This document shows positions 43,345 through 52,718 of a stretch of 63,067 nt of DNA, piece after piece; the first letter of the stretch is position 1, and the number at the start of each line of letters is the position of its first letter. Under the pieces are notes generated by a model, which did not search any database, was not told where the DNA came from, and saw nothing but the letters and a program-made list of their open reading frames with translations. The stretch is from Gracilibacillus sp. YIM 98692. GTDB lineage: Bacteria > Bacillota > Bacilli > Bacillales > Amphibacillaceae. Location of the stretch: positions 1 to 63,067 of the forward strand of contig NZ_WIXM01000020.1 in the NCBI RefSeq assembly GCF_010993965.1, read 5' to 3'. The translations under genes were made by a program, and so were the position numbers.

Positions 43345-43377
43345 GTGAGCTGTCATTTCTAGACAGCTCTTTTTTAG
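43345..43377 (+). terminator. Terminator after the thioredoxin-like gene
   Basis: GAGCTGTC (43347-43354) pairs with GACAGCTC (43362-43369), followed by six T. Confidence 0.9.
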
Positions 43378-43378
43378 C

Positions 43379-43506
43379 ATATCAGAATTTATATCATGTT
43401 ACAGATCAAGTGAATTCGACGTAGATACCACGATTAGGAAGATAGATAAGAGCAACTACATTTCTAACTTCGCCATAGGCTCGTCAATCAACGAGTTTTC
43501 TTTATC
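43379..43506 (+). repeat. Family B repeat, copy B2
   Basis: It carries AGAATTTATATCATGTTACA, GTGAATTCGACGTAG, a CAACTACAT arm and the terminal CTCGTCAATCAACGAG hairpin with TTTTCTTTAT. It sits a few bases after a terminator in the same orientation as the upstream operon. Confidence 0.75.
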
Positions 43507-43793: not shown

Positions 43794-43851
43794 TTGAATA
43801 GCGCTTACATGGATGTTATATTATTTATAAATCGGTTTAGTAAATCGGTTT
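43794..43851 (+). promoter_or_regulatory. Promoter P1 with cre-like site and tandem LacI-type operators
   Basis: TTGAAT (43794-43799) and TATATT (43817-43822) are spaced 17 bp. Between them TGAATAGCGCTTACA (43795-43809) resembles a CcpA cre site with one extra base. Downstream, AAATCGGTTT occurs at 43829-43838 and 43842-43851, 13 bp apart. The same layout recurs at promoter P2. Confidence 0.65.
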
Positions 43852-43872
43852 ATGTATGAAGGGGGGGTTCTT

Positions 43873-44628
43873 ATGAGTGGTGTTATTATTCCATTAAACT
43901 CCTTTCCTTATGACACAGTAAAGCGTAGAGGTCAGGCTTGGTTTGTGGAACATGTTGCTAAATCGGGAGCATATGGGGTAGAAATTCGCAGAGAGTTATT
44001 CCCAGAAGGTCGTTTCCCGCTAAAAGAGATTCGAAGTGAAACGGAAAAGTACAATTTGTTTATTGTTTATTCGGCACCAATTGAGCTTTGGCTTGAGAAT
44101 GGAACGTTTGATAAAGAAGCATTGCAACAAGTTTTTTTAGAGGCAAAGCAATTAGGAGCAAATTGGGTAAAAGTCTCACTAGGGCATTATAAAAAGAATA
44201 CTTCTGATTTTCTACCATTGAAAGAATTTCTGAAGTCTTATCATAGTGTTCAACTCCTGGTGGAAAATGACCAAACGATGTATGGTGGCAATATAGAAAA
44301 ACTAGCATCCTTTTTTACACAAGCTACTCATCAACAAATTCCTGTTAACATGACATTTGATACCGGAAACTGGTATTATACAAATCAAGATGTAGAAAAC
44401 GCATTGGAACAATTAGCAGGTCATGTCTGTTATCTCCATTTTAAACATGTGGAGAAACAAGAGGATGAACTTATTACTGTACCGCTTCCCAATAAGGAGG
44501 ATGCGGAATGGACACGAATTCTTCGTCGTTTTCCGGTTAATATAATGAAAGCGTTGGAATTTCCGATGGATTTGAACGGAATAAACAAGTATATGGCTCA
44601 AATACAACATGAAGAATTACAATTATGA
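43873..44628 (+). CDS. Sugar phosphate isomerase/epimerase-like TIM barrel protein
   Basis: The 251-residue protein has the xylose isomerase-like TIM barrel pattern with plausible metal ligands Glu in LLVENDQ, Asp in TFDTGNWY, His in YLHFKHV and Glu in KALEFPM. Relatives include UlaE-type L-xylulose-5-phosphate 3-epimerases, hydroxypyruvate isomerases and inosose enzymes; I cannot choose among them. The ATG at 43873 follows GGGGGGG. It is the first gene of the sugar-acid island under P1 and is followed by the lacI-type regulator. Confidence 0.75.
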   Translation: MSGVIIPLNSFPYDTVKRRGQAWFVEHVAKSGAYGVEIRRELFPEGRFPLKEIRSETEKYNLFIVYSAPIELWLENGTFDKEALQQVFLEAKQLGANWVKVSLGHYKKNTSDFLPLKEFLKSYHSVQLLVENDQTMYGGNIEKLASFFTQATHQQIPVNMTFDTGNWYYTNQDVENALEQLAGHVCYLHFKHVEKQEDELITVPLPNKEDAEWTRILRRFPVNIMKALEFPMDLNGINKYMAQIQHEELQL

Positions 44629-44704
44629 ATGTAGAATCTATGCAAATGTCACATTTACATGGCACAAATCATCCTAAGATTATCGAAATGAAGAGGTAGA
44701 TGTT

Positions 44705-45724
44705 ATGGGGAAAATAACAATGGCAGATGTAGCCAAAAAAGCAGGCGTATCTAAAAGTACAGTCTCACAATTTTTAAATAAACGGTACGAGTATATGCGT
44801 GAAGATACAAGAAAGAGAATAGAAGCTGCCATTGAGGAGCTTCATTATCAACCCAATTATCTTGCCAGAAGCTTAAAGCAAAAGCGTACATCAACGGTTG
44901 GAATCATTGTAGCGAATATCATGCACCGTTTCTCGACAGAAGTGAGTCGCTCTATTGAGGACTTTTTTAACAAACATGATATTCATACCATCGTATGTAA
45001 CGCAGATAATGATCCGGAGAAAGAAAAGAAATATATTGAGATGCTTCGTGCTAAACAAGTGGATGGACTGATCATTTTTCCAACTGGTGAAAATTTTGAT
45101 CTGTATAAAAGGATGATGAAGGAAGGGTATCCGATTGTGTTTATGGATCGAAAAGTACCTGATTTAATAGCTCCATCCGTTGTTTCTAATAATATAGAAG
45201 CAACGAAAACTACAATCGAGCATTTTATGGAAAATGGCCATAAGCAGATTGCTATTGCTACAGAACCTTTAACAATTTCCACTAGGGTGGAACGACAAGA
45301 AGGTTATAAAAAAGCGCTGCAAGATAATGGAATAGAAATACGCCAACCATTCATGATTAGCGCAAATATTAAGAAGATAAAAAAAGAACTAGAAGAACTA
45401 TTTGCGTTAGATGATCCGCCATCAGCTATTTTAGCAGGAAATGACCTTGTGTTTTTAGAGGTATTAGAATTTGCCAAGGAACACAAGCTGAAAGTCGGTA
45501 AAGACTTCGCGTTGGCAGTTTTTGATAATATTCCTTTTGCACATTTGGTTCATCCACCTGTGACAACTATTGCTCAACCATCTTATCACATGGGAGAAAA
45601 GGCTTCTGAATTATTATTAAAACAAATTAATAAAGAAGAGATAGAAAATCATGAGTTGACGTTTCCTTGTGAGCTTATCATCAGGGATTCTTCCAAGGAA
45701 TTAAACAATAATACAGTGATATGA
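44705..45724 (+). CDS. LacI/KdgR-type transcriptional regulator of the sugar-acid island
   Basis: The 339-residue protein has the N-terminal LacI helix-turn-helix (MADVAKKAGVSKSTVSQFLN), hinge helix PNYLARSLKQKR and a periplasmic-binding-protein-like effector domain from residue about 58. It should bind the tandem AAATCGGTTT sites at P1 and P2 and respond to a pathway intermediate, as KdgR does for KDG in B. subtilis. Its gene lies between the two operators, so autoregulation through P1 is likely. Confidence 0.87.
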   Translation: MGKITMADVAKKAGVSKSTVSQFLNKRYEYMREDTRKRIEAAIEELHYQPNYLARSLKQKRTSTVGIIVANIMHRFSTEVSRSIEDFFNKHDIHTIVCNADNDPEKEKKYIEMLRAKQVDGLIIFPTGENFDLYKRMMKEGYPIVFMDRKVPDLIAPSVVSNNIEATKTTIEHFMENGHKQIAIATEPLTISTRVERQEGYKKALQDNGIEIRQPFMISANIKKIKKELEELFALDDPPSAILAGNDLVFLEVLEFAKEHKLKVGKDFALAVFDNIPFAHLVHPPVTTIAQPSYHMGEKASELLLKQINKEEIENHELTFPCELIIRDSSKELNNNTVI

Positions 45725-45776
45725 TGTAAATGAAAAGCATTCCCATAAATATACAGGTTATATTAAAAAAAAAGCC

Positions 45777-45835
45777 TTGTAAAACGCTTACAGGTATTTT
45801 ATACTTTTACTATACCGGTTTAGTAAATCGGTTTA
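45777..45835 (+). promoter_or_regulatory. Promoter P2 with cre-like site and tandem LacI-type operators
   Basis: TTGTAA (45777-45782) and TATACT (45800-45805) are spaced 17 bp. TGTAAAACGCTTACA (45778-45792), a perfect TGTAA/TTACA inverted repeat, sits between them as a cre-like site. ATACCGGTTT (45812-45821) and AAATCGGTTT (45825-45834) follow with the same 13-bp spacing as at P1. Confidence 0.68.
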
Positions 45836-45884
45836 GTAGAAATGGTTCATACAGTTTTGAAAACGTAATATAGAGGTGATGCAA

Positions 45885-46439
45885 ATGAAACAGGTAACCG
45901 AAACCATTGCAAATGAAATCAGTGAGGTATTGAAAAGAATCAATGCCGATGAGTTGAAGCAATTAGCTAATGAGTTAAAAGGAAGAAAGCGAATATTTAT
46001 AGCCGGTACTGGACGTTCTGGGTTAGTAGGGAAAGTATTTGCGATGCGTTTAATGCATAGTAACTATCATGTTTATGTGGTAGGAGAGACCATTACACCT
46101 AGTATTGAAGCAGAGGATATTTTACTTGTTATTTCTGGTTCTGGAAGCACGGAAACGTTAAAGTATTATGCAAAACAAGCTAAGAGTGTGGGAGCAGCAG
46201 TCGCTCTAGTCACAACAAATAAAGACTCGGGAATCGGAAAGATTAGTGATTGTCATGTTCAGATTCCAGCAGCAACGAAAAAGCGACTGCCACATGAACC
46301 AGATACTATTCAACCGTTGGGAAGTCAATTTGATCAATCAGCACATTTATTGCTAGATGCTGTAATCGTTTATCTTTTGCAAAGTCAAGAAATAGAAGAT
46401 GAATCAAGCTTAAATAAAAAACATGCAAATTTAGAATAG
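45885..46439 (+). CDS. hxlB: 6-phospho-3-hexuloisomerase (HxlB/PHI), SIS domain
   Basis: PHI interconverts 3-hexulose-6-phosphate and fructose-6-phosphate in the ribulose monophosphate pathway. The SIS domain shows GTGRSGLVGKVFAMRLMH, the Ser-rich phosphate loop ISGSGSTETL and TIQPLGSQFDQS, and the C-terminus ends HANLE as in B. subtilis HxlB. 184 residues from the ATG at 45885, six bases from AGAGGTG. First gene of the P2 operon; its partner synthase is the last gene, about 5.5 kb away, instead of adjacent as in hxlAB. Confidence 0.88.
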   Translation: MKQVTETIANEISEVLKRINADELKQLANELKGRKRIFIAGTGRSGLVGKVFAMRLMHSNYHVYVVGETITPSIEAEDILLVISGSGSTETLKYYAKQAKSVGAAVALVTTNKDSGIGKISDCHVQIPAATKKRLPHEPDTIQPLGSQFDQSAHLLLDAVIVYLLQSQEIEDESSLNKKHANLE

Positions 46440-46453
46440 GATGGATGTTAGTA

Positions 46454-47095
46454 ATGTCACTTATTCAAACAATTAGTGAGCACAAAGTTGTCGCCATTAT
46501 TCGAAAAGCAGATGAAAACAATATAATTCCTATATTAAAAGCATTGGATGAAGGTGGGGTTAAAGCTGTTGAAATAACTGCTGAAACTCCCCGCATTACC
46601 AATCTAATCGAGAAAGCAGTTGCGGAGTATGGCGGGAAAATTGGCATTGGAGCTGGAACTGTTTTAGATCCAGAAACAGCAAGAGCAGTTATTATGGCTG
46701 GGGCAGAGTTTATTGTTTCCCCTACCTTAAATACAGAAACTTTAAAACTGACAAATCGATATGGCGTTTTAAATATACCTGGTGCCTTAACACCGACAGA
46801 AATTGTAACTGCTTACGAACATGGAGCTGGCATGGTGAAGGTATTTCCGGCAGATGCATTTGGTCCAAAGTATATGAAAAATGTTCACGGTCCATTACCC
46901 CATATTCCATTAATGGCAACAGGTGGTGTTACGTTAGATAATATGAATGAATTTATTGCTCATGGAAGTAAAGCTGTGGGTATTGGAAGTAACTTAGTAA
47001 ATGTATCGAAGCTTCACACAAGGGAAGACTATGACAATCTAGCATTACAGGCAAGTCGTTTTGTTACAATGCAAAAGGAATTGAATTTATCATAA
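46454..47095 (+). CDS. KDPG/KHG aldolase (Eda/KdgA family)
   Basis: The family cleaves 2-keto-3-deoxy-6-phosphogluconate to pyruvate and glyceraldehyde-3-phosphate, or 4-hydroxy-2-oxoglutarate. The Schiff-base lysine lies in MVKVFPADAFGP; GIGAGTVLDPETA, VSPTLN and MATGGV loops are intact. Where E. coli Eda has TLRT with a substrate-binding arginine, this protein reads TAET, so specificity may differ. 213 residues from 46454. With the downstream KDG kinase it forms a plausible two-step KDG route. Confidence 0.87.
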   Translation: MSLIQTISEHKVVAIIRKADENNIIPILKALDEGGVKAVEITAETPRITNLIEKAVAEYGGKIGIGAGTVLDPETARAVIMAGAEFIVSPTLNTETLKLTNRYGVLNIPGALTPTEIVTAYEHGAGMVKVFPADAFGPKYMKNVHGPLPHIPLMATGGVTLDNMNEFIAHGSKAVGIGSNLVNVSKLHTREDYDNLALQASRFVTMQKELNLS

Positions 47096-47118
47096 TTAAT
47101 AAAAAAGGGGCGTTTAAA

Positions 47119-48141
47119 ATGAAAAGGATTGCATTTTTATTATTAGTTGCAATGACAACTATTATAGCGGGTTGTGGAAATAACAGTGCGAATGGAGAAA
47201 ATGGTGATTCAGTAGATAGTATTAAATTGATTGCTGCACACAATCAAACATCAACAGAAAACCCATATCAAGATGGATTAGTGAAGTTTAAAGAAGTAGC
47301 AGAAGAGGAATCTGACGGGGCTATTGAAGTAGAGGTACACGCCGGAACAATTGGTACAAGTGAATCAGAGCTTGTTGAGAAATTGCAAACAGGTGGAGCG
47401 GATGTTGTCCTTGTTTCCCCAGGATTTATGACACAAACAGGAATTAAAGAAGTAGATTTATTTGCACTGCCATATTTATTTAGTAGTTATGATCATTGGG
47501 AAAATGTGGTGGACGGTGAAATTGGTCAGCAAGTAGCAGAAATTATTAATGAAAAATCAAATAATGATTTTAAGATTGTCGGCTATTGGACAGCTGGTGT
47601 AAGACACTATTATGGTAAAAAACCACTTCAATCCATGGATGATTTAAAGGGTTTAACATTGAGAACGCAAACATCAGGAGTTGTAGCGAATTACTGGAAG
47701 CAAACTGGAGCGGTTCCAACATCTGTAGCATGGGGTGAATTATATCAAGGGCTGCAGCAAGGTGTTGTAGATTCTGCTGAAAATGCATATCCATACTTTG
47801 TGCAGCAAAATCACCACACGACTGAAAATGGCAAGTATATTACGGAAACAGGCCATGATTATACAACGAGATTGCTATTAGTGAATGGCAACACGTTTGA
47901 TTCCTACTCAGATGAGCAAAAAGAAATTATTTTGAAAGCTGCTGAAGAGTCTGTGCAAGCAGAGAGAGAAGCACTATATACGCAGGAAGAAGAATATAAG
48001 CAAAAAGCGTTAGATGATGGGGCAGAAGTGAATGAAATTGACAGACAGCCATTCATTGATTTAGCAAAACCTATTCAAGATGAAGCAGCAAAAGAAATGG
48101 GAGCAGAAGATCTTCTGCAGCAAATTAGAGAGATGGAATAA
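47119..48141 (+). CDS. TRAP transporter solute-binding lipoprotein DctP
   Basis: The 340-residue lipoprotein (lipobox TIIAGC, Cys19) is the extracellular receptor of a TRAP transporter, which imports carboxylate substrates with a sodium gradient. The DctP/DctP7 pattern is clear: KGLTLRTQTSGVV with the carboxylate-binding arginine, and GVVDSAENAYPYF with the conserved Asn. It precedes dctQ by 300 bases that hold a family A repeat. The substrate is presumably a sugar acid, judging from the neighbouring genes. Confidence 0.92.
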   Translation: MKRIAFLLLVAMTTIIAGCGNNSANGENGDSVDSIKLIAAHNQTSTENPYQDGLVKFKEVAEEESDGAIEVEVHAGTIGTSESELVEKLQTGGADVVLVSPGFMTQTGIKEVDLFALPYLFSSYDHWENVVDGEIGQQVAEIINEKSNNDFKIVGYWTAGVRHYYGKKPLQSMDDLKGLTLRTQTSGVVANYWKQTGAVPTSVAWGELYQGLQQGVVDSAENAYPYFVQQNHHTTENGKYITETGHDYTTRLLLVNGNTFDSYSDEQKEIILKAAEESVQAEREALYTQEEEYKQKALDDGAEVNEIDRQPFIDLAKPIQDEAAKEMGAEDLLQQIREME

Positions 48142-48184
48142 AGAAGTTCATAATTCAAGAACGTGGATGAGTTAACAGTTTCAT

Positions 48185-48282
48185 CAACTGGAATATACGA
48201 CATTGCTGTGGGAAAGCGAGATTAAGAGACACAACTGTGAGGTTTAGCTCGCAAGGAGCAAGCGGAAAGTATATTCCAGTTG
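48185..48282. repeat. Family A repeat inside the TRAP operon, copy A8
   Basis: CAACTGGAATATAC (48185-48198) and GTATATTCCAGTTG (48269-48282) are perfect 14-bp arms enclosing GTGGGAAAGCGAG and AGCGGAAA core words. The gap 48142-48443 between dctP and dctQ holds this element and no gene. Confidence 0.8.
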
Positions 48283-48443
48283 TGTGTAGAGTAAGTTGAC
48301 TTTTAGGACAACTCCTTCCAACTAAAATAAGCCACTTGCAAAATGATTAGCCTAATTACTTCCTAGTTAAGTTATAGGTTTCATGTACTGTATGTGATGT
48401 TAGGAGGTGTCGTTTGTGAAATTTTGTTAAGAGGAGGGACAGC

Positions 48444-48923
48444 ATGAAAAAGCTTATTCAAACACTAGAAAAAATCCAATTAGCAGCAGGTGCCATATTT
48501 TTGGCGCTATTCTTTGCTGTCATTTTGATTCAAATTACTACACGTCAACTAGGAATTTCAGTTATTTGGACAGAAGAAGTAGCGAATTATTCTTTTATAT
48601 GGGCAGTTTTTATGGGTGCGTCTGTAATGGTTAATCGAAAAGAGCATTTCACCTTTGACCTTTTACAAAGAAAATTAAAAGGGAAATTACGAATAATGCT
48701 TTCCTTAATCATAGATACAATGCTTATTCTATTTAATATTACCATATTCTATTTTGGTATCCTGACTGTACAGCGTTTTTGGAATTATAATTGGGTGTCA
48801 CTTCCAGAGATGAAAATGGGGTATGTGTGGATTGCGGTTCCGATTATGGCAGGTACGATGGTTGTTTATTTAATATCACATGTGATTCAGCACGTAAAAT
48901 CATTAAGGGAGGTAAGTGGATAA
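48444..48923 (+). CDS. TRAP transporter small permease DctQ
   Basis: The 159-residue protein has four spans and the DctQ features WTEEVANYSFIWAVFMGASVMV and RKEHFTFDLL between spans 2 and 3. It acts as the small membrane subunit joining DctP and DctM. GAGGAGGG precedes the ATG. Its TAA overlaps the dctM ATG by one base. Confidence 0.9.
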   Translation: MKKLIQTLEKIQLAAGAIFLALFFAVILIQITTRQLGISVIWTEEVANYSFIWAVFMGASVMVNRKEHFTFDLLQRKLKGKLRIMLSLIIDTMLILFNITIFYFGILTVQRFWNYNWVSLPEMKMGYVWIAVPIMAGTMVVYLISHVIQHVKSLREVSG

Positions 48924-50209
48924 TGGGCTTTCTACTAATAGGATTATTTATTGTCTTACTGTTTATCGGTGTGCCTATTGCATTTGTCATCGGTATAGTA
49001 GCATTGTTAGGAATTATGAACATTCCATACATTCCTGAAATGACGGTTCCGATGAAGATGTTAAATGGGTTAGATTCATTTGTATTATTAGCAGTTCCAT
49101 TATTCATCTTAGCTGCTAACTTAATGAACTCTGGAAAAATTTCAGTTAAATTAGTTGATCTAGCGTTAGCCATTGTCGGGCCAATACGTGGAGGATTAGC
49201 ACATTCAAACATTCTAGTGTCTATGATGTTTGCTGGTGTTTCTGGTGCTTCACAAGCAGACACGGCAGGCGTTGGAAAAATCCTTATTCCAAGCATGATT
49301 AAAAAAGGCTATGACAAAGAAACAGCGGTAGGAGTAACCGCAGCATCCTCTACCGTAGGGGTGGTTATACCACCGAGTATTCCAATGATTATTTTCGCTG
49401 GTATTGCGAATGCATCTGTCGGTGCATTGTTCCTTGGCGGAATTGTGCCAGGAGTTTTAATTGGATTAAGTATGATGATTTTTACGTATATTATTGCTGT
49501 AAAGAGAAAATACCCTAAATCAGCAAGAGTAGAATTTGTTAAAATATTCAAATTATTCATGGAAAGTCTGCCTGCCTTACTGACGGTCCTGATTATTATT
49601 GGGGGCATTGTTTCAGGGATATTTACAGCAACTGAAGCTGCAGCAATAGCGTCCTTATATACGTTATTCATCAGCATGTTTTTCTATAAAACTTTAAAGT
49701 TAAAAGACTTACCGAAAATAATTGTCGATACGTTAGCGTTAAGCTCACTATCCCTATTTGCATTAGCTACAGCAAGTGCATTAGGTGAGCTAATGAGTTA
49801 TTACCAATTAGGGACTCTAGCTCAAGAATTTTTTACCAACAGCATTGGTTCCAAAGCCATTTTTATACTAATCATTATTGCATTCTTTCTTTTTGTTGGA
49901 ACATTTATGGATGCGATTCCAGCAATGATATTATTTGTTCCTGTTATTTTACCAACTGCATTACAGTTTGGCATTGATCCAATACATCTTGGTTTAATTG
50001 TCATTATTACGTTAGCTATAGGCCTTGTGACACCGCCATATGGGCTATGCTTATTACTTGCCGCTAAAATTGGGGAGCTTTCCATTGAAAGATCCTTTAG
50101 AGCTGTATTACCGTATATCATTATTGTCATTATCGTATTAATGTTTATTGCATTTTTCCCTGATGTTGCTTTTTATGTTCCGAAGTTGATAAACCCGACA
50201 TTATTTTAA
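48923..50209 (+). CDS. TRAP transporter large permease DctM
   Basis: The 428-residue transport subunit has about 12 spans and the DctM signatures SNILVSMMFAGVSGASQADT, GVVIPPSIPMIIF and VTPPYGLCLLLAA. It couples substrate uptake to sodium. The start at 48923 overlaps dctQ (TAATG) and follows GGGAGG; the longer open frame upstream runs through dctQ and is not used. Confidence 0.93.
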   Translation: MGFLLIGLFIVLLFIGVPIAFVIGIVALLGIMNIPYIPEMTVPMKMLNGLDSFVLLAVPLFILAANLMNSGKISVKLVDLALAIVGPIRGGLAHSNILVSMMFAGVSGASQADTAGVGKILIPSMIKKGYDKETAVGVTAASSTVGVVIPPSIPMIIFAGIANASVGALFLGGIVPGVLIGLSMMIFTYIIAVKRKYPKSARVEFVKIFKLFMESLPALLTVLIIIGGIVSGIFTATEAAAIASLYTLFISMFFYKTLKLKDLPKIIVDTLALSSLSLFALATASALGELMSYYQLGTLAQEFFTNSIGSKAIFILIIIAFFLFVGTFMDAIPAMILFVPVILPTALQFGIDPIHLGLIVIITLAIGLVTPPYGLCLLLAAKIGELSIERSFRAVLPYIIIVIIVLMFIAFFPDVAFYVPKLINPTLF

Positions 50210-50254
50210 TGGTTTGGATGGACTGATGAGATAAAAGAAGGAGTTACCAATCAT

Positions 50255-50923
50255 ATGGATTATAACAAAAAAATAGCTGGAGAAGAGGCGGTCAACGAAA
50301 TCAAAGATGGGATGACCATCGGGCTAGGTTCAGGATCTACAGTAAATTGGATGCTTAAAAGATTAGCAGATCGGATAGAAAAGGAAGGATTAACGATAAG
50401 GGGGATCCCATCCTCCATTAAGACGGAGTGTTTGGCAAGGGAATTAGGAATCCCTCTAACGGATTTTACAGAAGTAGAGCATATTGATCTTGCTATAGAT
50501 GGTGCCGATGAGGTAGACCCTCAGTTACAGCTCCTTAAAGGTGGAGGAGGTTCTTTGGTAAGGGAGAAAATAGTGGATACTATGGCAGAAAAGCTAATTA
50601 TTATTGTGGATGAATCAAAAGTCGTCCAACAGTTGGGCACTTTCCCTCTTCCCATTGAAGTACTCCCGTTCGGATGGAATATAACAGCGAAACAGATTGC
50701 TTTATTTGGATGTGTTCCAACATTACGAAAAAAAGGAAAAGACGTATTTATTTCGGATAATGGAAATTATATTTTGGATTGTACGTTTCATAACATTATG
50801 GATCCAAAAGCTTTACATGAGAAATTGAAATTACTTGTTGGTGTCGTGGAAACAGGTTTCTTTATTGATATGGCTGATAAAGTCATAGAGGGACGTAACG
50901 GTAAGATAGAAATATGGTCTTAA
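50255..50923 (+). CDS. rpiA: Ribose-5-phosphate isomerase A
   Basis: RpiA interconverts ribose-5-phosphate and ribulose-5-phosphate. The motifs GLGSGSTVNWML, DLAIDGADEVDP, LLKGGGGSLVREKIV and the catalytic Glu within that region are intact in 222 residues. Placing rpiA in a catabolic operon is unusual and suggests that the pathway consumes or produces ribulose-5-phosphate, the C5 partner of HxlA at the end of the operon. AAGGAG precedes the ATG. Confidence 0.92.
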   Translation: MDYNKKIAGEEAVNEIKDGMTIGLGSGSTVNWMLKRLADRIEKEGLTIRGIPSSIKTECLARELGIPLTDFTEVEHIDLAIDGADEVDPQLQLLKGGGGSLVREKIVDTMAEKLIIIVDESKVVQQLGTFPLPIEVLPFGWNITAKQIALFGCVPTLRKKGKDVFISDNGNYILDCTFHNIMDPKALHEKLKLLVGVVETGFFIDMADKVIEGRNGKIEIWS

Positions 50924-50973
50924 CGAAAGGCTGATTTTCAGACATCATCAAGACAAGCAGAGGAGGAGCGAAA

Positions 50974-51924
50974 ATGTATGATGTGATTACTATTGGGGAA
51001 GCAATGATTGCCTTTAACCCTAGTTCAACAGGTCCTATGAAATTTGTAAATAGTTTTGATAAAAAAATAGGAGGAGCAGAGTTGAATCTAGCAATAGGTT
51101 GTTCCCGCCTTGGACTATCATCTGGTTATATTAGCACTTTAGGAAATGATGAATTTGGAAAGTATATTAAAAATTTTGCTCGTGGGGAAGGAATTGATGT
51201 GTCACAGGTTCAGCTAGTGGATCATTATCCTACTTCTCTGAATTTTAAAGAGATTATGGAAGATGGAAATGTGAGGACGTTTTACTATCGTGATAAGTCT
51301 CCTATCTTAGCAATGACACCGGCTGATTTGAATGAAGACTATTTTAAACAAGCCAAAGTGTTACATTTGACAGGAATCTTTCCGGCTATTGATCCCAAAA
51401 ATATAGAAATATTCGATCAAGCTATTTCTTTAGCTAAAAAACACGATGTTAAAATTTCCTTTGATCCGAATATTCGTTTACGCATGTGGTCGAAGGCAGC
51501 AGCAAGGGATACATTATCCAAGATACTTCCTCATGTGGATATTTTGCTTGCTGGCGACGAAGAAATGGAAATCATTATCGGAGAAAAAGAACCAAAAGCA
51601 ATCGTAGGTGCTTTGAAAGAATTAGAGATTTCCTATATAGCAATTAAACAAGGAGAGAATGGATCTGTTGGTTATCATAACGGCGAATATATAGAAGCTG
51701 GGCCAGTAAAAGCTCCAAAGGTAGTGGATACAGTAGGAGCTGGAGATGGTTTTAATGCAGGTTTCCTTTATGGGATTTTACATGATTGGTCACTAGAAAG
51801 AACACTTGATTTTGCCAACACGATAGGTTCTATGGTAGTAGGAGTCATTGGAGATAATGAAGGGCTTCCTTATTATGAAGATGTGCAAGGGCGTCTTGGT
51901 GAGATAGATGTAATAGAAAGGTAA
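50974..51924 (+). CDS. PfkB-family 2-keto-3-deoxygluconate kinase (KdgK-like)
   Basis: KDG kinase phosphorylates 2-keto-3-deoxygluconate to KDPG. The 316-residue ribokinase fold opens VITIGEAMIAFNP, has GGAELNLAIGCSRLG, the tyrosine-containing substrate loop VRTFYYRDKSP and the C-terminal PfkB signature DTVGAGDGFNAGF with the catalytic Asp. The ending DNEGLPYYED is typical of KDG kinases. A related 2-keto sugar acid cannot be excluded as substrate. Confidence 0.87.
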   Translation: MYDVITIGEAMIAFNPSSTGPMKFVNSFDKKIGGAELNLAIGCSRLGLSSGYISTLGNDEFGKYIKNFARGEGIDVSQVQLVDHYPTSLNFKEIMEDGNVRTFYYRDKSPILAMTPADLNEDYFKQAKVLHLTGIFPAIDPKNIEIFDQAISLAKKHDVKISFDPNIRLRMWSKAAARDTLSKILPHVDILLAGDEEMEIIIGEKEPKAIVGALKELEISYIAIKQGENGSVGYHNGEYIEAGPVKAPKVVDTVGAGDGFNAGFLYGILHDWSLERTLDFANTIGSMVVGVIGDNEGLPYYEDVQGRLGEIDVIER

Positions 51925-51936
51925 AGGGGTTTTTTG

Positions 51937-52554
51937 ATGAAATTACAATTAGCTTTAGACAGGCTGCCACGAGAAGAGTGTATTCGGATTGTAAAGGAAA
52001 CAGAAGAGTTTATAGATATCGTGGAAGTTGGAACAGGAGTTATTAAAGAATATGGCATGTCCATTGTACGTGAATTACGAGAACTGTACCCCAACAAAGA
52101 AATTTTAGCAGATATGAAGACTTGTGATGCAGGTAAGCATGAAGCAAAACAAGCCTTTGATGCAGGTGCAGATATTGTTACTGTAATGGCTTTTTCTTCT
52201 AGTTTAACCATTAAGGATACTTTGAAGGTAGCAGAAGAATATGAAAAGCGTATTATGATTGATTTGTTGGAAGTCGATTCAAGCGATAAAATTGCACAAT
52301 TACAAGATTTAAATGTAGACCTTGTGAGTCTGCACGTTGGTAAAGACAAACAACAAGAAGGTAGCTTTAACACCGACTTATTCTCTTTAGTGAAAGGATA
52401 TCATTTCGAAACTTCCGTAGCTGGTGGAGTCCATTTAGATACGCTTCCTGAAATTGCGAAAGAGGATCCTGATATCATCATTGTGGGCAGTGCTATTACA
52501 AAATCAGAGAATCCACAAGAAGTTGCAAGAAAAATGAAAGAAGTAATGAGTTAA
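51937..52554 (+). CDS. hxlA: 3-hexulose-6-phosphate synthase-like protein (HxlA/HPS; OMPDC superfamily)
   Basis: HPS joins formaldehyde to ribulose-5-phosphate; relatives in the same superfamily decarboxylate 3-keto-L-gulonate-6-phosphate. Catalytic positions are visible at Asp8 (LALD), Glu30 (VEVGT), and Asp59-Lys61-Asp64 (ADMKTCDAG), with His in SLHVG and the phosphate loop AGGV and VGSAI. 205 residues from the ATG at 51937, seven bases after AAAGGGG. Co-occurrence with a true HxlB-like isomerase favours HPS, but a decarboxylase role is possible. Last gene of the P2 operon. Confidence 0.83.
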   Translation: MKLQLALDRLPREECIRIVKETEEFIDIVEVGTGVIKEYGMSIVRELRELYPNKEILADMKTCDAGKHEAKQAFDAGADIVTVMAFSSSLTIKDTLKVAEEYEKRIMIDLLEVDSSDKIAQLQDLNVDLVSLHVGKDKQQEGSFNTDLFSLVKGYHFETSVAGGVHLDTLPEIAKEDPDIIIVGSAITKSENPQEVARKMKEVMS

Positions 52555-52591
52555 GAAGCAAGAAATACAACTTTTCTTGCTTCTTTTTTTT
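52553..52591 (+). terminator. Terminator of the sugar-acid operon
   Basis: AAGAAGCAAGAAA pairs with TTTCTTGCTTCTT around a 6-7 base loop, followed by a run of T. Confidence 0.88.
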
Positions 52592-52718
52592 ATAGGAAAG
52601 TATAAATTGTCAGCAAGGAAGCAATTTCGACGTAGTGGACAATTCTAGGAATATAGATAAGTGCAACTACGTCTCTGACTTCGCCAAAGGCTCGTCAATC
52701 GACAAGTTTTCTTTATTT
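52592..52718 (+). repeat. Family B repeat, copy B3
   Basis: The copy opens AGGAAAGTATAAATTGTCAG and carries TTCGACGTAG, CAACTACGTCTCTGACTTCG and a final CTCGTCAATCGACAAG with TTTTCTTTAT. It is nearly identical over most of its length to copy B5 at 58.2 kb and directly follows the hxlA terminator. The rest of 52719-52965 holds only the upstream region of the next gene. Confidence 0.78.

Follow-up and report, generated by a model that had tools for sequence, protein, structure and literature searches.

A TRAP-importer operon of Gracilibacillus sp. YIM 98692 with hxlA- and hxlB-like genes, probably for a 2-keto sugar acid

A described system for 2-ketogluconate is the kgu operon (ptxS-kguE-kguK-kguT-kguD) of Pseudomonas and enterobacteria. 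According to PMC11678583, KguD acts on 2-keto-6-phosphogluconate, 2-ketogluconate is the effector of the regulator PtxS, and KguE is without a known reaction even in Pseudomonas. Here we describe an operon of Gracilibacillus sp. YIM 98692, which lies in a stretch of 63,067 nt (contig NZ_WIXM01000020.1, the window). Its ten genes, all open on the plus strand (43852-52554), encode in this order a KguE-like TIM barrel protein, a LacI regulator, HxlB, Eda, the TRAP importer proteins DctP, DctQ and DctM, RpiA, a PfkB kinase and HxlA. The two operons are alike in the KguE-like protein, the PfkB kinase and the presence of a sugar-acid importer, and also in a regulator of the LacI family whose operator has a similar core (AAACCGGTTT in the PtxS site; PMC11678583). 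However, the Gracilibacillus operon has no reductase gene: HxlA and HxlB stand in the place of KguD, and TRAP genes are found instead of the MFS transporter KguT. While the product of the kgu operon is 6-phosphogluconate, that of the operon described here would be ribulose-5-phosphate, formed without a reductase step. With kgu-type loci of Firmicutes, the kgu operon has KguK and in part also the MFS transporter in common.

The second system to be compared is the hxlAB pair of the ribulose monophosphate (RuMP) pathway with its regulator HxlR. HxlB interconverts fructose-6-phosphate and 3-hexulose-6-phosphate, and HxlA cleaves the C1-C2 bond of 3-hexulose-6-phosphate via the enediolate of ribulose-5-phosphate. 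The operon pair belongs to the same protein families with scores above the cut-offs, and C2/C3 isomerisation and C1-C2 bond chemistry are proposed for it, too. However, it falls in a distinct clade with residues of its own (R10, G/S35 and Y/F40 in HxlA; D153 and H157 in HxlB), stands under a LacI regulator and is nearly always adjoined by a kinase and an acid importer. 3-Keto-L-gulonate-6-phosphate decarboxylase (KGPDC; UlaD/SgbH) is of the same superfamily as HxlA. UlaD performs an analogous decarboxylation in the L series, and the operon HxlA might likewise decarboxylate a 3-keto-6-phospho-hexonate; the basic residue at the Arg139 position of KGPDC is Lys137 in most operon-type HxlA. In contrast to UlaD/SgbH, the operon HxlA stays far below the cut-offs of that family (133.6 vs. 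250 and 100.8 vs. 294 bits), has Asp, Ala and Ser at the positions which we take to be Glu112, Thr169 and Arg192 in the wild-type enzyme (the PDB chain compared carries changes), is accompanied by neither UlaE nor UlaF among the genes of the operon, and its product is assigned to the D series as judged from RpiA. Finally, operons for 2-keto-3-deoxygluconate (KDG; kdgR-kdgK-kdgA-kdgT) have a LacI regulator, a PfkB kinase and an aldolase of the 2-keto-3-deoxy-6-phosphogluconate (KDPG) type as here, but differ in the residue type of the kinase, and in the operon described here the aldolase is optional and HxlA-HxlB are nearly always present.

Conservation of the gene set

The ten genes listed in a preliminary description of this DNA were confirmed by their open reading frames and by profile searches. 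With the curated NCBIfam profiles, HxlA and HxlB reached 268.6 and 230.5 bits (cut-offs 200 and 160); the values for the KDPG-type aldolase and RpiA are 174 and 276 bits (cut-offs 156 and 126). The first gene had been described as an isomerase/epimerase-like TIM barrel. The fold stands, but the assignment has to be amended to KguE-like: the sole PDB match is 1yx1 (E 2.3e-42), PA2260 of P. aeruginosa, which we take to be KguE, and the protein shares 34% identity with a Klebsiella protein whose annotation reads ‘Epimerase KguE’ and 49% with KguE of the locus G426. Its score against the AP_endonuc_2 profile, 27 bits, is under the Pfam cut-off of 31.

Two samples were used, 159 genomes of the family and 398 of the phylum, the own genome being part of both. 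With HxlA of this operon as query, 77 of the family genomes gave matches, which besides a few partial or weaker ones belong to two identity classes (46-77% and 37-43%), and the neighbourhoods of 60 family loci, 50 with high-identity and ten with low-identity HxlA, were compared with the operon. In addition, 163 relatives were sorted by their likeness to this HxlA and the best 80, called named loci below, were analyzed; 72 of them have full flanks, and the context counts given for these refer to near relatives, in part from the family genomes. HxlA, HxlB, DctP and DctM are present in all 72 loci and LacI and the kinase in 71, so that the gene set is conserved as a unit in relatives, the point on which the preliminary description had made its proposal depend. 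Eda was found in 55 loci, and RpiA on the same strand in 33 and on the opposite strand in 11 more. The commonest orders are LacI-kinase-HxlA-HxlB-Eda-TRAP (25 loci) and LacI-HxlB-Eda-TRAP-RpiA-kinase-HxlA (18 loci).

Of the 50 family loci with high-identity HxlA, 49 contain the kinase, 48 HxlB and 47 each DctP and LacI; the gaps belong to three loci at contig ends and to genome G150, which has an MFS importer. HxlR was present in none of these 50 loci. Among the ten low-identity loci, eight have HxlR, L094 has HxlB only, and L095 is of the kgu type. The co-occurrence of the operon genes is far beyond chance. Since HxlA, HxlB, the kinase, the importer and LacI are counted so often and Eda and RpiA less often, the former are the core of the operon and the latter two its accessories. 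The operon is present in many salt- and alkali-tolerant Bacillus relatives; the initial observation is confirmed and is more general than first noted.

Some family loci carry additional genes. A Gfo/Idh/MocA-type oxidoreductase is encoded 3’ of hxlA in 15 of them (L042-L048 and others). An Ldh_2 dehydrogenase is added in nine, a Zn-dehydrogenase in eight of these and UxuA in six, and their extra genes include a short-chain dehydrogenase/reductase (SDR) which is nearest to D-mannonate oxidoreductase. The Ldh_2, Zn-dehydrogenase and UxuA genes would suit a wider hexonate hub.

HxlA and HxlB in kgu-type loci

KguE is rare, being found in four of the 159 family genomes and in five of the 398 phylum genomes (own genome counted in both), and all eight KguE-bearing genomes of the two samples have HxlA and HxlB in the same locus, with a broken HxlA in G150. 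The operon of G150 comprises LacI, KguE, kinase, MFS transporter, HxlA (two frames) and HxlB; the locus of G426 KguE, kinase, MFS, Eda, LacI, HxlA and HxlB; that of G263 a KguE-kinase fusion, MFS, HxlA and HxlB; and those of G402 and G542 KguE, an SLC13/GntP-like permease, kinase, HxlA and HxlB. Four Firmicutes plasmid records with KguE of 28.9-30.8% identity also encode a permease, a kinase, HxlA, HxlB, Eda and LacI. In the family of G402, a search with HxlA in place of KguE gave matches in seven of 29 genomes, each time with KguE and a kinase next to it. By comparison, in the enterobacterial plasmid loci with readable context KguE and the kinase are followed by a KguD/GhrB reductase in four of four cases, and an MFS gene is annotated between them in three; a match in Serratia symbiotica, without readable kgu context, is outside this count. 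Every kgu-type Firmicutes locus that was opened has HxlA and HxlB at the place of this reductase. Plasmids of Ligilactobacillus salivarius and Levilactobacillus brevis also encode KguE homologues (29 records; identities, as far as listed, 23-27%). These were left out of the counts, and the two such records that were opened contain other neighbours.

KguD was searched for (tblastn, E 1e-8) in 18 fetched kgu-type or KguE-bearing loci, including L095, which is without KguE. No match was obtained in 17 of them, and the only one (27%) lies in L191 more than 6 kb outside the operon. Because the kgu-type Firmicutes loci keep HxlA and HxlB, and KguD was not found in 17 of the 18, the pair appears to replace KguD. 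In comparison with the MFS transporter of G150, the enterobacterial ones are 62-64% and those of G426 and G263 70-73% identical. A Klebsiella protein with the annotation 2-ketogluconate kinase shares 52-55% identity with the kinases of G150 (55%), G426 and G008.

In a tree of 49 rows, in which the outgroup KGPDC is on a very long branch, RuMP-type HxlA is separated from a single clade (100/93) that unites HxlA of TRAP loci with HxlA of kgu loci. For the RuMP type, 16 HxlA and nine HxlB rows from nine loci were compared, eight of these loci having HxlR. Arg10 of HxlA is present in 47 of 47 readable TRAP rows (two are without this position), in 80 of 80 named loci and in 14 of 14 kgu-type rows, whereas the 16 RuMP-type rows have Leu (15) or Glu (1). 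Similarly, HxlB carries Asp153 and His157 in 47 of 47 TRAP rows, in 78 of 78 named loci and in all kgu-type rows that were aligned. In YckF and the nine RuMP-type rows, residue 153 is Glu and residue 157 is not His; the catalytic residue of YckF-type proteins is presumably Glu152. Lys137 of HxlA, aligned with Arg139 of KGPDC, is shared by 48 of 49 TRAP rows and by 80 of 80 named loci; of the 14 kgu-type rows, only eight have it. It was dropped as a universal decarboxylase mark, because Ile or Val stands here in seven HxlA of the kgu or TRAP type; Arg10 and Asp153/His157 of HxlB hold better as marks. The conserved RuMP-type residues (L/E10, P35 and E40 in HxlA, E153 in HxlB) are not those of the operon proteins, in which the HxlA marker positions adjoin the invariant Asp9 and are near His134.

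The LacI of this operon and those of two KguE-bearing Aquibacillus loci nest among kgu-type LacI (97/95); other sampled TRAP LacI are in separate lineages, and PtxS is on a long branch outside the Firmicutes group. An operator consensus, TAAACCGGTTTA, was taken from the G150 site after inspection. Upstream of LacI, 70 of 75 named loci match it at 11 or 12 of 12 positions, with about 0.2 expected from simple shuffles, while two enterobacterial loci match at only 7-8 positions and G263 at 7. The operator shares the core of the PtxS site TGAAACCGGTTTCA.

The kinase had been assigned as KdgK. At the position of Tyr89 of the T. thermophilus KDG kinase, which we take to touch the ligand (two kept arginines presumably bind the carboxylate), the three solved KDG kinases have Tyr (two) or Phe (one), and Tyr is also present in two Eda-linked kinases of sampled genomes, one of them beside a galactonate dehydratase. 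All 11 kgu kinases and PDB 4du5 have Gln, and all 18 aligned TRAP kinases, that of the operon included, have Asn, so that the KDG-kinase identity was not borne out. Aquibacillus albus (L082/L133) has both an Asn kinase at HxlA and a Tyr kinase at Eda, an arrangement suggesting that the Asn type is something other than a plain KDG kinase. The low score in the KDG-kinase model (220.8 vs. 400 bits) was dropped as evidence, because the cut-off is likewise missed, with 246.7 bits, by the kinase that adjoins the galactonate dehydratase in this genome.

Gene content, conservation, clades, residues and operators were computed, and from them we infer reactions, substrate and inducer. It is likely that the operon serves the use of 2-ketogluconate by import and phosphorylation, followed by isomerisation by HxlB, decarboxylation by HxlA and the uptake of ribulose-5-phosphate by RpiA. 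The TRAP system would import a 2-keto sugar acid, most likely 2-keto-D-gluconate, and the kinase would phosphorylate it at C6. 2-Keto-6-phosphogluconate and its 3-keto isomer are the carboxylate analogues of fructose-6-phosphate and hexulose-6-phosphate. Thus, with C1 replaced by a carboxylate, the same two steps should give 3-keto-6-phosphogluconate and then ribulose-5-phosphate and CO2: the HxlB homologue would shift the keto group from C2 to C3, just as fructose-6-phosphate is isomerised by HxlB, and the HxlA homologue would cut the C1-C2 bond as in hexulose-phosphate synthase, with release of CO2 instead of formaldehyde. The presence of RpiA near the operon in 44 of 72 loci fits a D product and points to D-ribulose-5-phosphate, which RpiA would lead into the pentose phosphate pathway. 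No reductant would be needed, unlike in the KguD route, and the kgu-type LacI would control both promoters of the operon. The earlier interpretation is replaced by that of a decarboxylating operon for a 2-keto sugar acid, most likely 2-ketogluconate, which is probably composed of repurposed RuMP enzymes. Somewhat more cautiously, we think it probable that a repurposed formaldehyde-fixing pair constitutes an undescribed redox-neutral route (2-ketogluconate, 2-keto-6-phosphogluconate, 3-keto-6-phosphogluconate, ribulose-5-phosphate and CO2), the TRAP version of which runs through Bacillaceae-type genomes, while the kgu version occurs in Lactobacillales and other Firmicutes, also flanked by insertion sequences (IS) on plasmids. 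In the open-licence literature we found no paper joining hexuloisomerase with ketogluconate, and none joining 3-keto-6-phosphogluconate, 2-ketogluconate and decarboxylase.

Several loci show additional features. In G150, hxlA is split into two reading frames (L040 12161-12786); the operon may be non-functional in that strain, or this may be an assembly error. On Lacticaseibacillus and Loigolactobacillus plasmids, the kgu-HxlAB cassette is located between two IS copies of the same family (IS6; ISLpl1) and is like a composite transposon (L180 6536-16702, L181 6446-15150). The signature-positive locus of G008 (L095 3842-10294) encodes a KguK-type kinase, a phosphotransferase system permease (recognized by eye), a protein of 542 aa without match in Pfam or NCBIfam, LacI, HxlA and HxlB; its substrate is perhaps a glycoside of 2-ketogluconate. 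A protein of 710-720 aa is encoded in two kgu-HxlAB loci (L193 5132-7294, L221 9629-11761), and the L193 copy matches Pfam Hydantoinase_A. L089, L090 and L091 are HxlR-linked; in each of them, hxlA is present in three or four copies, and small open reading frames recur between these. Fermentation of 2-ketogluconate is described for five lactic acid bacteria (PMC6447522), but we could not connect it with the kgu-HxlAB cassette.

Alternative substrates and roles

Several observations weigh against the 2-ketogluconate route. KguE is on the same strand in only two of the 72 full-flank loci, with five distant copies (30-32%) on the opposite strand, and these loci are closely related and overlap the family sample. 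HxlA and HxlB exceed the curated cut-offs for formaldehyde enzymes, and residue 137 of HxlA is Ile or Val in L057, G402 and five of six further kgu-type loci. At a distance of 6-9 kb downstream of HxlA, the opposite strand encodes KguD/GhrB-like dehydrogenases in Virgibacillus indicus (identity 53-59%) and in six Cytobacillus-type TRAP loci (35-37%), and L128 has a match of 29%; the downstream dehydrogenases were taken as unlinked neighbours. Eda has no step in the proposed pathway. Our guess is that it serves KDG, which most likely would enter through the same importer and share the kinase. Further, the PDB chains that DctP resembles most belong to the uronate binders, as judged from the ligands that we take these chains to have. 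Arg162, Arg182 and Asn222 of DctP are spaced like the uronate-binding Arg, Arg and Asn described in PMC7660916, judged without direct alignment.

The kinase also has to be counted here. That of the operon is 37% identical to KguK, the TRAP-type kinases form their own groups outside the KguK clade with Asn instead of the kgu Gln, and the kinase encoded in the galactonate-dehydratase cluster of this genome is closer to KguK than they are. Thus, the TRAP branch may use another 2-keto acid. An operon with the same chemistry and a different 2-keto or 3-keto hexonate as substrate, 2-ketogluconate being left to the kgu-type branch, would also be in line with TRAP and kgu HxlA as sister clades and with the nine Ldh_2-bearing family loci, most of which also have the Zn-dehydrogenase, the SDR or UxuA. 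We nevertheless consider this unlikely, since KguE and a kgu-type LacI precede the TRAP operon here and in two Aquibacillus genomes, the operator is common to TRAP and kgu-type loci, and the frequency of RpiA argues for D-ribulose-5-phosphate.

The preliminary description had proposed an imported sugar acid that releases formaldehyde, for example a methylated uronic acid, with HxlA and HxlB assimilating the formaldehyde and KdgK and Eda the sugar acid. An imported acid is supported by our analysis. The formaldehyde part, in contrast, is very improbable: the scores of HxlA and HxlB and the presence of Eda and RpiA would agree with it, but residues and clades differ from the RuMP type and go with 2-ketogluconate operons, the same genome has a second hxlAB with HxlR beside it, and HxlAB are retained in kgu-type loci that have no TRAP, RpiA or Eda. 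None of the recurring neighbours named by profiles (Gfo/Idh, SDR, Ldh_2, Zn-dehydrogenase, UxuA; not every neighbour was searched) makes formaldehyde, and together with the split in residues and clades this led us to reject the methylated-uronate idea.

Slightly less probable still is that KdgK and Eda make this a uronate/KDG operon, with HxlAB and RpiA serving just to refill pentose phosphates from fructose-6-phosphate under release of formaldehyde: this would account for the likeness of DctP to uronate binders and for Eda in 55 of 72 loci, but Eda is dispensable while HxlAB and the kinase hardly ever are, the released formaldehyde would be toxic, and kinase and Eda as a plain KDG branch are weakened by the missing KDG-type Tyr/Phe and by separate loci for UxuA with its own Eda and for UxaC in the same genome.

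Layout of the locus and meaning of the proposed route

The features of the locus are listed in Table 1. The promoter regions before the first gene and before hxlB have 60 nt in common at 80% identity, and each contains a site similar to a catabolite-responsive element (cre), the name of the motif being our assumption, and a double operator. This fits two co-regulated units and agrees with the two transcription units initially proposed.

Table 1. Features of the operon in the window, and dehydrogenase genes near related loci
Feature	Position	Strand	Basis or remark
cre-like site (CcpA type), first promoter	43797..43811		Read from sequence; matching stretch at second promoter
Double LacI operator TAAATCGGTTTA-G-TAAATCGGTTTA	43828..43852		Similar double sites in kgu-type loci G150 and G426
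kguE-like TIM barrel	43852..44628	+	Probable start ATG 43873, as in relatives
LacI-family regulator, kgu-type lineage	44705..45724	+	Profile searches; placed among kgu-type LacI in the tree (97/95)
cre-like site TGTAAAACGCTTACA, second promoter	45778..45792		Read from sequence
Double LacI operator TATACCGGTTTA-G-TAAATCGGTTTA	45811..45835		Sequence, operator search, promoter comparison
hxlB-like SIS isomerase, D153/H157	45876..46439	+	Probable start ATG 45885; proposed 2-keto/3-keto-6-phosphogluconate isomerase
eda-like KDPG/KHG aldolase	46445..47095	+	Profile searches
TRAP solute-binding protein DctP	47119..48141	+	Profile searches
TRAP small permease DctQ	48444..48923	+	Profile searches
TRAP large permease DctM	48923..50209	+	Profile searches
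rpiA, ribose-5-phosphate isomerase A	50255..50923	+	Profile search
PfkB sugar-acid kinase; Asn where T. thermophilus KDG kinase has Tyr89	50974..51924	+	
hxlA-like protein, R10/K137	51937..52554	+	Proposed 3-keto-6-phosphogluconate decarboxylase
Terminator-like hairpin with T-run, 3’ of hxlA	52555..52591	+	Read from sequence
KguD/GhrB-like dehydrogenases downstream of hxlA, opposite strand	L101 19086-19970; L119, L122, L123, L125, L131, L134		

A dispersed element of about 110 nt flanks the operon at 43369-43505 and 52580-52716 with copies that are 73% identical. With the downstream copy as query, 45 matches were listed in the genome, and therefore we rejected the idea that direct repeats of 137 nt delimit a mobile island on both sides. 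The gap of 300 bp between dctP and dctQ (48142-48443) contains a stretch with partial matches (70-87%) at nine other places of the genome, which is perhaps a small repeat element.

If the proposed route is correct, many genes annotated as hexulose-phosphate synthase would encode decarboxylases, and the reading of hxlA and hxlB as formaldehyde genes would have to be corrected in many genomes; the residues described here give a simple test separating operon-type from formaldehyde-type HxlA and HxlB. 2-Ketogluconate would have a reductant-free exit into the pentose phosphate pathway, which would be of use to fermenters. Last but not least, the enzyme pair would have moved jointly from a C1 aldol reaction to a decarboxylation, acting on carboxylate analogues of its own substrates.

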